Position numbers and translations under genes: made by a program
Assembly: GCF_004634385.1 (NCBI RefSeq)
Contig: NZ_CP037895.1
Location: forward strand, 2,145,245-2,209,244
Length of the DNA: 64,000 nucleotides
DNA from: Thermaerobacter sp. FW80
GTDB taxonomy: Bacteria; Bacillota; Sulfobacillia; Thermaerobacterales; Thermaerobacteraceae
Direction of reading: 5' to 3'
In this document: piece by piece, positions 6,937 to 48,167 of the stretch
Layout of the letters: each line of letters starts with the position of its first letter
Numbering within the stretch: the first letter of the stretch is position 1
Notes under the pieces: generated by a model
Database searches by the model: none
Told to the model about the DNA's origin: nothing
What the model saw: the letters and a program-made list of their open reading frames with translations, nothing else

Positions 6937-8781
6937 CTAGAGGGCTCGCGCCTGGGTGCCGTCGGGCCCTGCGGTCAGCCGCTGGCGCAAGTGGGCGATG
7001 CGCCGTTCCACCCGGGAGGGGGCTGTGCTCCGCGCGTCCCGGCTCGGCGCGGCCCGGGCCGCCGGCGGCGGCGGGAAAGCCGCCGCCGGCGCCGGCGGCG
7101 GGGCGCCGTCCCGGCCCTGAGCGGTGGCGGCGTCCTGCGCCCGGGCGGCCACCTCCGGCGGCCGGGGCGTCCCGGCCACGGGCAGCCGCCTTCGCCGCTC
7201 CCACAGCCGCTCGGCCTGATCCAGGCAGGCGGCCGCCCGCTGGCGCTGCCCTGCCCGCAGCCACAGCTCCGCCAGGTCGAGCCATGGCTCCACCGGTGCC
7301 AGCGGGTGGTGGGCGTCGCACAGGGCGGCCTGCACGGCGACGGCATCGCCCCAGCGCCGTTGCCGGCGGTAGAGGGGGACCAGCCGGCGGGCCACCGCCG
7401 CCACCGCCCCGCGGCCGCGGGCCAGGACCAGGGCGCGCTCGTACCACCGCGTCGCCACGTCGGGGTCGATGCGCTCCCACTCCCGCCCGGCGGCCAGGGC
7501 CTCATCCCAGCGGCGCGCACCGGGCGGCCCGGCCAGCAGCCAGCCGCCGAGCCACGCGGCGATGCCCACCAGCGAGAGCAGGTCCACCAGGTTGTGGCGC
7601 AGGACGGGAAGCAAGGGGTCCAGGGTCTCCGCCGCCCCGTCCCCCGCCGCCGGGACGGGCCCGCGCCGGGCGGGATCCGGTGCGCCGTCCCGCGGCCGGC
7701 CGGAGGCGCCGGTCGTCCCCGCAGGGTCCGGGGGAGGGGGCATCGGCGCCTCGGGGTGCGGGCCCTCCCGTCGACGCAGGAAGCGGGCGAAGCGCTCCGG
7801 GATCTCGGCGCCCTGGACGTCGCCCTGGCGCTGGACGCCCAGCAGCCGGCTCTCCAGCGCCCGCAGGTTCACCCGCTGCGCCGGCCCGGCCCACAGCCGG
7901 CGGGCCGGGTAGAGCAGGTCGAGGTGGCCGGCGGGTGCCGGTGCCGTCCGCCGGTGCCAGTGCCAGCGCGTCTCCAGCATGGGCCAGTCGAAGCCGCGGC
8001 CGTTGAAGGTGACCAGCCACGGGTGCTCGGCCAGCCGGCGCGCGATGGCGGCCAGCCAGGCCCGCTCCGTCTCGGGCTCCAGGTCCGGCACCAGGTACTG
8101 CTCGACGACCAGCACCGGCCCGACCGCCTCGGCGACGGCCTGATCCTCCGCGGCCCCGGGGCTCCCCGGCCCCCCGCCCGGCGTGCCGGCGCCCCGCGGC
8201 TCTCCCCCCCGGTCGCCGGTCCCCGCCCCGCCGGCGTCGAACCAGGCCAACCCCGCGAGGAAGGGGCGGTGGCCGGCGCCCACCGCCAGGCCGGTGGTCT
8301 CCAGGTCGAGGAAGAGGAGCTGCTCCACCGCGGCGGGCGCTGGCTGCCGGCTGCGGACGGGTCCCGCCACCGCGGCCAGCACGGCCAGGGAGCGGCGGAG
8401 GTCGCGATACCACGTGGCCGGGGTCCCGCTCCCGTGAGCGAAGGCGGCCGGGTAGACCGTGCGCCAGCACCAGGCGGTCCCCGCGGGCGTCGGCGAGGGC
8501 GTGAAGGGATGGCCGGGGCCGTCGGCGGCCGGCGGTCCCCCTGGGGCGGTCCCGTCCGCGGCATCGCCTGGGACCGGGACCGGCCCGGCCCCGGCGGCGA
8601 GGGAGGCCCCGGCTGCCGGGCTCGCTGTCACGGGCGTGCAGCTCACCGGACCGGATCCCCCGGGCGCCGACCCGGTCGCCGGGGGCGCCCCGCCCCGCGA
8701 GCCGGCCTCCGGCCGGCCGCGGGCCTTGAGCACCAGTCGTCCCTGGGCGTGGAGCGCGCGGAGCTCCTCGAGCCGGCTCAT
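6937..8781 (-). CDS. mrfB: MrfB/YprB-like exonuclease with TPR-like C-terminus
   Basis: Ribonuclease H-like (DnaQ-type DEDD) exonuclease, 614 aa. In Bacillus subtilis MrfB works with helicase MrfA in mitomycin C lesion repair. Visible motifs: FLDLETTGL (Asp159, Glu161), TFNGRGFDWPML (Asp265) and RHNLVDLLSL (Asp400), which together supply the acidic tetrad. The C-terminal part (about 430-600) is helical with repeated W/Y-A/L spacing, as expected for TPR repeats. An Ala/Gly-rich linker (about 20-115) sits between the first helix and the nuclease domain. The ATG at 8781 overlaps the mrfA stop as ATGA, so the pair is translationally coupled. The frame stays open far upstream over mrfA and beyond, which is a high-GC artefact. 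Confidence 0.88.
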   Translation of the reverse strand: MSRLEELRALHAQGRLVLKARGRPEAGSRGGAPPATGSAPGGSGPVSCTPVTASPAAGASLAAGAGPVPVPGDAADGTAPGGPPAADGPGHPFTPSPTPAGTAWCWRTVYPAAFAHGSGTPATWYRDLRRSLAVLAAVAGPVRSRQPAPAAVEQLLFLDLETTGLAVGAGHRPFLAGLAWFDAGGAGTGDRGGEPRGAGTPGGGPGSPGAAEDQAVAEAVGPVLVVEQYLVPDLEPETERAWLAAIARRLAEHPWLVTFNGRGFDWPMLETRWHWHRRTAPAPAGHLDLLYPARRLWAGPAQRVNLRALESRLLGVQRQGDVQGAEIPERFARFLRRREGPHPEAPMPPPPDPAGTTGASGRPRDGAPDPARRGPVPAAGDGAAETLDPLLPVLRHNLVDLLSLVGIAAWLGGWLLAGPPGARRWDEALAAGREWERIDPDVATRWYERALVLARGRGAVAAVARRLVPLYRRQRRWGDAVAVQAALCDAHHPLAPVEPWLDLAELWLRAGQRQRAAACLDQAERLWERRRRLPVAGTPRPPEVAARAQDAATAQGRDGAPPPAPAAAFPPPPAARAAPSRDARSTAPSRVERRIAHLRQRLTAGPDGTQARAL

Positions 8782-44967: not shown

Positions 44968-45573
44968 TCATGCCATCCGGCGGAGCAGCGCCACCACCTT
45001 TCCCAGGACGCGGACGTCGCGGACCCGGATGGGCTCCATCGCCGGATTCTCCGGCTGCAGCCGGATGCCGTCGCGCTCGCGGTAGAAGCGCTTGACCGTC
45101 GCCTCGTCGTCCAGCAACGCGACGACGATGTCGCCGTCCTCGGCGGTGTCCTGGCGGCGCACGATCACGTAGTCCCCGTCCAGGATGCCGGCACCGATCA
45201 TGCTGTCGCCCCGGATGCGAAGGGCGAAGACCTCGCCTTCCGGCAGGAGGTCGGAGGGGAGGGGGAGGACGTCCTCGATGTTCTCCACCGCGAGGATCGG
45301 CCGACCCGCCGTCACCTGACCGACCAGGGGCACCGCCACGGTGCGCGTCCGCACGCCAGCCTCGCCGCGCACCTCGATGGCCCGCGGCTTCGTGGGATCT
45401 CGTCGGATGTAGCCCTTGCGCTCCAGTTGGGCGAGATAGGTGTGGACCGTCGAGGTGCTCTTCAAGCCGACCGCCTCGCCGATCTCGCGCACCGACGGCG
45501 GGTAGCCCCGCTCGCGCACGGACGCCTTGATGAACTCCAGGATCTCCCGCTGACGGCGGGTGAGTTCCTCCAA
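44968..45573 (-). CDS. lexA: SOS repressor LexA
   Basis: 201 aa. Winged-helix DNA-binding domain ([44 protein letters not shown]). The self-cleavage site is Ala89-Gly90 in QVTAGRP, with catalytic Ser124 (GDSMIGAG) and Lys161 (EATVKRFY). TTG 45573 is the likely start: it follows AGGAGGTG at proper spacing, whereas GTG 45582 overlaps that site. This start gives MEELTRRQ and puts the cleavage bond close to the Ala91-Gly92 of B. subtilis. Its promoter region contains two candidate LexA boxes, implying autoregulation. Confidence 0.97.
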
Positions 45574-45783
45574 CGCCGGCACCTCCTGCTATGGCCATCC
45601 GTCGCGCCGGCCGGGAGCCGGATCCCAGCGAGGGCCCTCGCCACGGGCCCCATGGGTCCTCGCCAGGGCCGGGCCGCCTCCTCGGTGCCCCCGACCGCCC
45701 CGCACGGTTGGTCCCCCGGAGCCGGGCCGGCCCGTCGGGGGACGTCGGGCGCCGCTAGCAGGCCGAGGAAGCGGGCCGACTGC

Positions 45784-45822
45784 CGAATACGGGACGAATA
45801 TAGGTTCTGCAAACAGGCGTTC
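45784..45822 (-). promoter_or_regulatory. lexA promoter with two LexA-like boxes
   Basis: Read on the minus strand: -35 TTGCAG (45812-45807), a 17-bp spacer, -10 TATTCG (45789-45784). GAAC-CTAT-ATTC (45807-45796) fills the spacer and GAAC-GCCT-GTTT (45822-45811) overlaps the -35. Each differs at one base from GAAC-N4-GTTC. The boxes start 15 bp apart. Confidence 0.6.
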
Positions 45823-45984
45823 CATCCGGGTATTCGGGGCCGCCGGCCCGATTCCTCCTACGCCCGGCTCGATTCCTGCTGCGCCCGTCGCGTTGCTGCA
45901 CCCTGCGCCCGTCGCGTCGCGCAGCCGCCACGGCTGCCCACCCCGGACCGCCGGCCTCCCTTCCAAAGCGTGACGAGGGAAGGC

Positions 45985-46013
45985 TTGACGAGGGAACACA
46001 CGTTCCCTATCAT
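45985..46013 (+). promoter_or_regulatory. SOS promoter of the yneA-like gene: perfect LexA box as spacer
   Basis: TTGACG (45985-45990), exactly 17 bp, TATCAT (46008-46013). The spacer contains the perfect palindrome GGGAAC-ACAC-GTTCCC (45992-46007), a full match to GAAC-N4-GTTC. LexA bound there would fully occlude RNA polymerase. Confidence 0.85.
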
Positions 46014-46057
46014 GGGGGCATCGGCAAAACGGGTGTTCGGTCGAGGGAGGGGACGGC

Positions 46058-46705
46058 ATGCTGGTGGGTCGGGCGCAGGTGCGGTGGGCGGACCGGGTGA
46101 CCCGGGGGTCGGTCCGTTCGGAGGGCCGGGGGATGCGGACGAACGCGGCGCCGACCGGCAAGACCGAGGCCTTCGGCCCCGGCGGTGGCGGAGAAGGCGT
46201 CGACCGCCTTCGCCGGCGCGCCATGCAAGCGCCGGCGGTACGGCGGCGTCGGTACCGCTGGCGGCCGACGCGGCGCCCGGCGATGGTCGGCCTGGTGCTG
46301 ATCCTCCTGCTGCTCGGGGCGCTGGGGCGGGAGAGCGAGCCGTCCAGCACGGCGCCGGTGCCGACGCCGATGGCGGCGGCCCGACTCGCCCGAGACGCGG
46401 GGCCCGCGTCCCGGATGGACCTGGCTGCCGGCATCGCGGCTGCGGGAGCCGCAGCAGGCGGTGACGAGGCCGCGGCCTCGCCGGTTCGCGGCCTGGGGGC
46501 GGTGGATCGCGTGGACGGTGACGGGGCCGTGCAGGTGGTGGTTCGTCCCGGGGACACCCTGTGGGAGGTGGCGCAACGGCTCGGCCGACCGGGTCGCGAT
46601 CCCCGCGAGGGCGTGGCGGCGATCATGGAGGCCAGCGGCCTGTCCACGGCGGCGCTGCGGCCGGGGATGGTGCTGACGGTGCCGGCCGACTGGGTCGGCC
46701 GCTGA
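46058..46705 (+). CDS. yneA: LysM membrane protein, probable YneA-like SOS division inhibitor
   Basis: 215 aa. A long basic N-terminus, a transmembrane helix (about 76-91), an Ala-rich external linker and a C-terminal LysM domain (about 158-211: VVVRPGDTLWEVAQRLG...AALRPGMVLTVP). This architecture and the divergent position beside lexA match B. subtilis YneA, which halts division during SOS. YneA itself is only about 105 aa, so the N-terminal extension is unusual and a downstream start is possible. GAGGGAGGGGA lies before ATG 46058. A perfect LexA box controls its promoter. The assignment rests on context and architecture, not on sequence identity. Confidence 0.75.
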   Translation: MLVGRAQVRWADRVTRGSVRSEGRGMRTNAAPTGKTEAFGPGGGGEGVDRLRRRAMQAPAVRRRRYRWRPTRRPAMVGLVLILLLLGALGRESEPSSTAPVPTPMAAARLARDAGPASRMDLAAGIAAAGAAAGGDEAAASPVRGLGAVDRVDGDGAVQVVVRPGDTLWEVAQRLGRPGRDPREGVAAIMEASGLSTAALRPGMVLTVPADWVGR

Positions 46706-46843
46706 CCGCCGGATCGAAGCCGGCGGCCGGTGGCAGCCGCCGGCCGCCGGCCGCTGCCGCGGGCCGCCGTCGGCCGCCGTGCACCGTTGGCGGGCAGCGG
46801 TCCGCCCGTGAGTCCGCAGCGGTCCCCAAAGTGCGCAGCCCTA

Positions 46844-46871
46844 AGTTCGCATAAGTAGCATTATGTTAACT
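46844..46871. other. dif: candidate dif site (XerC/XerD chromosome dimer resolution)
   Basis: 28-bp layout: XerC-like arm AGTTCGCATAA, 6-bp centre GTAGCA, XerD-like arm TTATGTTAACT. The XerD arm agrees with the conserved TTATGTWAACT of Firmicute dif sites, and GCATAA/TTATGTTAA also matches E. coli dif. It stands as an A/T-rich island in an intergenic region, and the coding-strand bias reverses around it. The flanks 46706-46843 and 46872-47068 hold GC-rich inverted repeats (for example GGCGGCCGG/CCGGCCGCC near 46720) but no gene. Confidence 0.82.
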
Positions 46872-47068: not shown

Positions 47069-47878
47069 CTACAGCGGCGACTCGGATCCGAACCGCGGCG
47101 GCCGCTTGGCGCGCAGCGAGGCCAGCCCTTCTTCGGCGTCCGGCAGCGTGAAGCCCAAGAACTCCAGGGCTGTGGACGTGTCGAAGATCGGGCCGGCCCA
47201 CCGCAACCAGTTGTTGAGCGCGTACTTGGTCCAGCGGAGGGCCGTCGGGCTGCCCTCGGCCAGACGTCGGGCGATGGACAGGGCGGCCTCCCGGGCCTGC
47301 CCGTCGTCGACACAGAGCGACACCAGGCCCATGCGTTCGGCCTGCTCCCCCGTCAGCGGTTCGTTGAGGAGCAGGTGGTACTTGGCCTTGGCCATGCCGA
47401 TCAGCAGCGGCCAGATGATGGCGGCGTGGTCGCCCGCGGCCACGCCCAGGCGGACGTGGCCGTCCAGCAGCCGGGCGCTGCGGGCCGCGACGGAGATGTC
47501 GGCGAGCAGCGCCACGGCAAGACCCGCGCCCACCGCCGGGCCCTCGATGGCGGAGACGATGGGCTTGGAGCAGTCGATCACGTTGTAGACCAGGTCGCGG
47601 GCCTCCTTCCACACCCGCACCCGCGTCTTCGGGTCCTGGATGATGGCCTCCACGAGGCGGAAGTCGCCGCCGGCAGAAAAGGCCTTCCCGGCACCCCGGA
47701 CCAGGACCACGCGCACCGCGGGGTCTTCGTCCAGGTCGCGCCAGATCCGGGTCAGCTCCGAATGGGTTTCGGCATCGACCGAATTGAGGGTCTCCGGCCG
47801 CTCGAGCACCACCTCGAGGATCCCGGGCTCCGCCCAGGCCAGCCGCAGCCGTCCATACCGCGCCCACCACGCCGACAT
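47069..47878 (-). CDS. enoyl-CoA hydratase/isomerase family protein
   Basis: Crotonase-fold enzyme, 269 aa. Motifs: [39 protein letters not shown] (oxyanion hole Gly-Gly) and [46 protein letters not shown]. The Glu pair of true hydratases is not evident (position 2 reads GVAAGDHAA), so the reaction could be isomerase, lyase or thioesterase. ATG 47878 with GAGGGGAAGGG upstream. First gene after dif on the minus strand. Confidence 0.87.
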
Positions 47879-47965
47879 GGACCCTTCCCCTCCCCGCCCG
47901 TTCGTCCGCCGAATGCCGTCGGCGCCGCGCGCGAGCCGTCGACCCGGCAAGTCGCCACGATAGGA

Positions 47966-48011
47966 AAAAGGACGGGGAGGAGTTCGGCCACCCGGTGGCC
48001 GAACTCCTCCC
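47966..48011 (-). terminator. rho-independent terminator of the MDR oxidoreductase gene
   Basis: Positions 47975-48011 form a near-perfect palindrome (18-bp arms around one central base). On the minus strand the stem is followed after four bases by TTTTT. It lies 157 bp after the end of the 48168-49133 gene and before the enoyl-CoA hydratase gene. Confidence 0.75.
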
Positions 48012-48167
48012 ATCCCCCTCGACCTCGCGATGCCCGGCTCCTCCCCGCCGTCGCCCCGCGAATGGGCTCGGAGTCTCGCTTGCGGCCCGCGGGCCCCCTC
48101 ACGGATCACGGTCGCGGAAACGCCGGCTGGTGCCCTCGCACGTCCGTCCCGCGACGTCCCAGGGGGC

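Follow-up and report, generated by a model that had tools for sequence, protein, structure and literature searches.

The dif sites of bacterial chromosomes are known from several lineages. In Bacillus subtilis, dif, the site of the recombinases CodV and RipX, is 28 bp long, has an 11-6-11 layout and lies near the replication terminus. Dif sites were predicted in 97 of 100 Firmicutes (Kono et al. 2011, PMC3025954). In Proteobacteria, the XerD arm is better conserved than the XerC arm, the core is variable, the site lies near the cumulative GC-skew maximum, and its surroundings differ between species (Carnoy and Roten 2009, PMC2731167). Single-recombinase systems also exist, namely XerS/difSL and XerH/difH (PMC5357621, PMC2731167). 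In these, an atypical site is linked to a conserved gene, that of the recombinase itself.

The 28 bp at 46844-46871 of the 64-kb window, which is the whole stretch of Thermaerobacter DNA analysed here, are almost certainly the dif site of this chromosome. This reading is supported because sequence, uniqueness, position at the GC-skew switch, conservation in relatives, and the presence of genes for XerD and for an FtsK with a gamma domain all point the same way. The site is an ordinary new example of the known Xer type. The original prediction had supposed that dif was probably undocumented in this lineage. A literature search, with most subscription journals outside its reach, found no publication pairing Thermaerobacter with a dif site, but the Firmicutes covered by Kono et al. 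may include members of the lineage. By analogy with the known Xer pathway, homologous recombination would leave sister chromosomes as a dimer, and FtsK at the septum would pump DNA until the two dif copies meet. XerC would then bind the left arm and XerD the right, the gamma domain of FtsK would activate XerD, and strand cleavage and exchange over the GTAGCA core, followed by resolution, would yield two monomers.

The original prediction had described a bipartite Xer/dif 28-mer here, and both its sequence and its coordinates are correct. The 28-mer, AGTTCGCATAAGTAGCATTATGTTAACT, reads AGTTCGCATAA-GTAGCA-TTATGTTAACT on the forward strand, and has the canonical form of 28 bp with 11-bp arms, a 6-bp core, and an XerD arm TTATGTNAANT. 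Its XerD arm, TTATGTTAACT, fits the Firmicute consensus TTATGTWAACT exactly, as had been claimed. It is also the predicted A/T island in a GC-rich intergenic gap: 19 of its 28 positions are A or T in a window of about 76% GC, a content equalled by only two runs in the 64 kb. The gap, 363 bp long, lies between the ends of a LysM/YneA-like gene and a minus-strand enoyl-CoA hydratase gene (Table 1).

Table 1. Features of the dif locus and its neighbourhood (positions in the window)
Feature	Position	Strand	Remarks
lexA, SOS repressor	44968..45582	-	TIGR00498, 257 bits against a cut-off of 111
SOS-box-like site CGAATATAGGTTCT, lexA side	45795..45808		2 mismatches to CGAACNNNNGTTCG; counterpart in relatives
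SOS-box-like site CAAACAGGCGTTCC, lexA side	45810..45823		counterpart in relatives
SOS-box-like site GGAACACACGTTCC, yneA side	45993..46006		counterpart in relatives
SOS-box-like site AAAACGGGTGTTCG, yneA side	46026..46039		counterpart in relatives
LysM protein, YneA-like (SOS-induced division suppressor)	46058..46705	+	Pfam LysM, E 2.6e-8; divergent from lexA
dif site, 28 bp	46844..46871	+	single in genome; GC-skew switch; conserved island in relatives
XerC-binding arm (predicted) AGTTCGCATAA	46844..46854	+	arm of 11 bp assigned from its place in the 28-mer; putative binding
Central hexamer GTAGCA	46855..46860	+	identical in G002 and G003; GTGGCA in G001; variable outside these genomes
XerD-binding arm (predicted) TTATGTTAACT	46861..46871	+	TTATGT invariant in 17 sites; putative binding
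Enoyl-CoA hydratase/isomerase family gene, adjoining dif on the right	47069..48109	-	NF005595, E 1e-130

Searches of the whole genome returned the same single site. The assembly (G000) totals 3.04 Mb and consists of the 2,953,026-bp contig C1 and two small contigs. A degenerate dif pattern with up to three mismatches matched it in one place, which was also reported as its palindrome from the opposite strand, while the reversed control pattern gave no match over the same 3.04 Mb. A 28-position profile likewise gave one match (E = 3.2e-6, the site itself being among the 17 sites of the profile). Thus, by pattern and by profile, there is a single occurrence on the chromosome, and the rival sites that might have spoken against the prediction are absent. 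Within the window, the 28-mer at up to three mismatches was found once, against none in 100 shuffles.

Separately, contig C2 of the same assembly (77,620 bp; L203, L204) was seen to repeat its first part 51.68 kb further on, the two copies being 99.9% identical where compared (19.3 kb), and an integrase gene is present on it twice. C2 is probably a 51.7-kb circle that was assembled one and a half times.

The site had been proposed to mark the replication terminus, and the GC skew inflects at this locus. After detrending, the skew of an unbroken 320-kb stretch has its change point at C1:2191977, which is 124 bp away from the centre of dif. The raw cumulative curve is flat-topped and peaks 4.7 kb from dif, at 8510 compared with 8501 at dif itself. 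A wider sample of 40 stretches of 20 kb together with the window showed negative skew before dnaA, positive skew from dnaA to dif and negative skew past dif, with the cumulative minimum at dnaA and the maximum at dif. The dnaA gene is located at C1:855.5 kb, which places dif at 163 degrees from it. The point exactly opposite dnaA lies 140 kb (17 degrees) beyond the site, a discrepancy that counts against the dif reading. In two single-contig congeners, G002 and G003, the corresponding angles are 166 and 167.5 degrees.

Conservation in relatives follows the pattern expected of dif. Each of four genomes from the same genus and family (G001-G004) has one dif site, in the same place by lexA and yneA. 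In an alignment that took in 150 bp of flank to the left and right, the columns of dif were 87% identical, against 37% elsewhere, and dif itself was the best 28-column window of the alignment. In the 17 sites, which come from across the class, the bases TTATGT are invariant, as is a portion of the XerC arm, and the core is variable; this is the dif pattern described in PMC2731167. The XerC arm as a whole mostly reads ACTTCGCATAA in relatives. The profile matched at E <= 0.01 in 40 of 61 genomes. These observations bear on the idea that the 28-mer is an A/T-rich imperfect palindrome that arose by chance, for example a terminator belonging to the LysM gene. The site does lie 139 bp past that gene, and its arms are partial inverted repeats. 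However, the arms are conserved across families while the flanks have diverged, the shuffled sequences contained nothing comparable, and the palindrome would have to coincide with the skew switch, so that the chance of this explanation being correct is negligible.

It is also very improbable that the 28-mer is the attachment site of a mobile element that hijacks the Xer system, such as an IMEX-like phage or plasmid, and not a resident dif. Elements of this kind do carry dif-like sites, and several other integrases are encoded in the genome. Nonetheless, there is only one copy, it sits at the skew switch, and nothing is integrated at dif in G001-G003, because the same genes flank it on both sides there. 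Moreover, an attachment site of such an element would itself be dif. A search of a plasmid collection found nothing resembling the dif flank. Among the relatives, the draft genome G014 has two dif-like sites on separate contigs (L205:13154-13181 and L206:1800-1827) in about 300 bp of 87% similar surroundings. This pair could stem from a mixture of strains in the draft, or from insertion of an element at dif.

The genes needed for a resident dif site were sought as the original prediction had suggested. The xerD gene (L003, C1:2256.9 kb) scores 359 bits against the TIGR02225 cut-off of 330 and lies 65 kb from dif. One FtsK/SpoIIIE protein was found (C1:2135.1 kb, 57 kb from dif); it comprises alpha, motor and gamma domains, the last matching PF09397 with E 1.6e-28. 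B. subtilis, in contrast, has both SftA and SpoIIIE (PMC5357621).

The expected XerC was recovered as an orthologue whose gene is frameshifted in the assembly, a caveat to the dif reading. The gene lies at L007:1158-2123 (C1 about 2058.0-2058.8 kb), and XerC is the best family for the first 269 amino acids of its product. The break is a net loss of one base in the G run GACGGGGGGCGGGG: the frame breaks after HLLRHTFATHLLDGG, G000 having GACGGGGGGCGGGGCTG where relatives stay in frame, and the last C-terminal catalytic residues are out of frame. The preceding gene was read as trmFO, which matches the context of codV in B. subtilis. By context (trmFO-xerC-hslV in G000) and by family scores, the recombinases are orthologous to those of B. 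subtilis. The frameshift may be an assembly error in the G run or a real mutation. In the latter case, dif could be used by XerD alone, or by XerD with another recombinase; the frameshift, seen in the G000 assembly only, speaks for this, and the single-recombinase systems named above offer precedents. It is nevertheless unlikely: the loss falls in a run that is a likely spot for base-calling errors, the XerC arm of the site is intact, and xerC is open in G001-G004 and G006.

No KOPS-like polar motif converging on dif could be established, which is a further caveat to the dif reading. The E. coli KOPS, GGGNAGGG, is skewed toward dif over the 1.0 Mb from dnaA to dif (348:198), but its bias is unremarkable, ranking 35th among 42 composition-matched motifs, 34 of which are more biased. 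The B. subtilis SRS, GAGAAGGG, showed no strand bias toward dif. Both were rejected as the polar motif of this chromosome, the former being less biased than most matched G/A motifs and the latter unbiased. The strongest polar octamers were also rejected as KOPS, as they resemble Shine-Dalgarno sequences and coding bias.

The gene neighbourhood on the left of dif, overlooked by the original prediction, contains lexA and a gene for a LysM protein of 215 amino acids. This protein matches the NCBIfam YneA model with E 6.7e-7 and 29 bits, under the 60-bit equivalog cut-off, and its orthology to YneA rests on context, namely its divergence from lexA and the SOS boxes. The two genes are very probably an SOS divergon that includes a division inhibitor, like the one in B. 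subtilis, because four SOS-box-like sites lie between them and have counterparts in relatives. Such counterparts were found between lexA and yneA in G001-G004, G006, G016 and G034; each of these intergenic regions has 3-5 of them, compared with about 0.15-0.4 per 500 bp in other sequence. A tRNA-Ser (CGA) called by ARAGORN at 46683-46771 was taken as false; it lacks Rfam support, and part of it coincides with the 3' end of the LysM gene.

The two sides of dif differ in how far they are conserved. Among the loci examined, the right side (the hydratase and an oxidoreductase) is kept only within the genus, in G001-G003. Conservation of the lexA-yneA side extends well outside the family, and the order and orientation of lexA, SOS boxes, yneA-like LysM gene and dif are maintained across the class (L156-L160, L162, L166). 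Frequently, spoVK and hflX are nearby too; dif therefore lies at the edge of an old block of genes. This retention of the lexA-yneA side in the Thermaerobacter lineage differs from the variable surroundings of proteobacterial dif. Linkage of the site to a conserved gene is shared with difSL/XerS and difH/XerH, although here the linked genes belong to the SOS response and the site is canonical.

Linkage between dif and lexA was counted from both directions. In G000, the two are 1.3 kb apart; in B. subtilis, the distance is about 25 kb. When profile matches were joined with lexA positions, 24 relatives had both on one contig. The distance was at most 11 kb in 23 of these, and in 21 dif lay upstream of lexA on the opposite strand, the layout of G000. 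The exceptions in layout were G010 (2.8 kb, same strand) and G058 (a weak dif match, with another layout), and G037 (3.6 Mb), at 98.6 kb, is the one clear break in linkage among relatives with both on one contig. With strong matches only (E <= 1e-4), 17 of 18 lie within 11 kb and 16 have the G000-like layout. Starting instead from 80 lexA loci across Bacillota, found by the LexA protein alone, a strong dif (score >= 24; best reversed control, 13.9) was present at 14, always 0.6-4.9 kb upstream of lexA and always on the opposite strand. In 20 whole genomes from this set, a subset that counts for little since it was partly chosen with known matches inside, both were on one contig in nine; seven of the nine pairs lie within 25 kb (three in another orientation), and the others are 277 and 487 kb apart. 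All these figures are counts and not tests, because genomes within a family are not independent.

The linkage may be passive synteny. The simplest account is that dif is bound to the replichore junction, and the adjoining ancestral block is inherited along with it. Rather doubtfully, lexA-yneA-dif could instead be an ancient functional neighbourhood, in which a division block is tied to the point that is replicated and segregated last, and septation after damage awaits the resolution of dimers. A literature search, which left most subscription journals outside its reach, found no report of dif-lexA linkage or synteny.

The site establishes where the terminus lies and where dimers would be resolved on a very GC-rich Bacillota chromosome, and it yields a dif consensus for related bacteria. 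The lexA/yneA-dif neighbourhood, with its repeatedly observed polar layout, provides an easy landmark for locating dif in draft genomes of the group. It also makes testable the idea that the arrangement of genes at the terminus couples the SOS checkpoint on division to the resolution of chromosome dimers.
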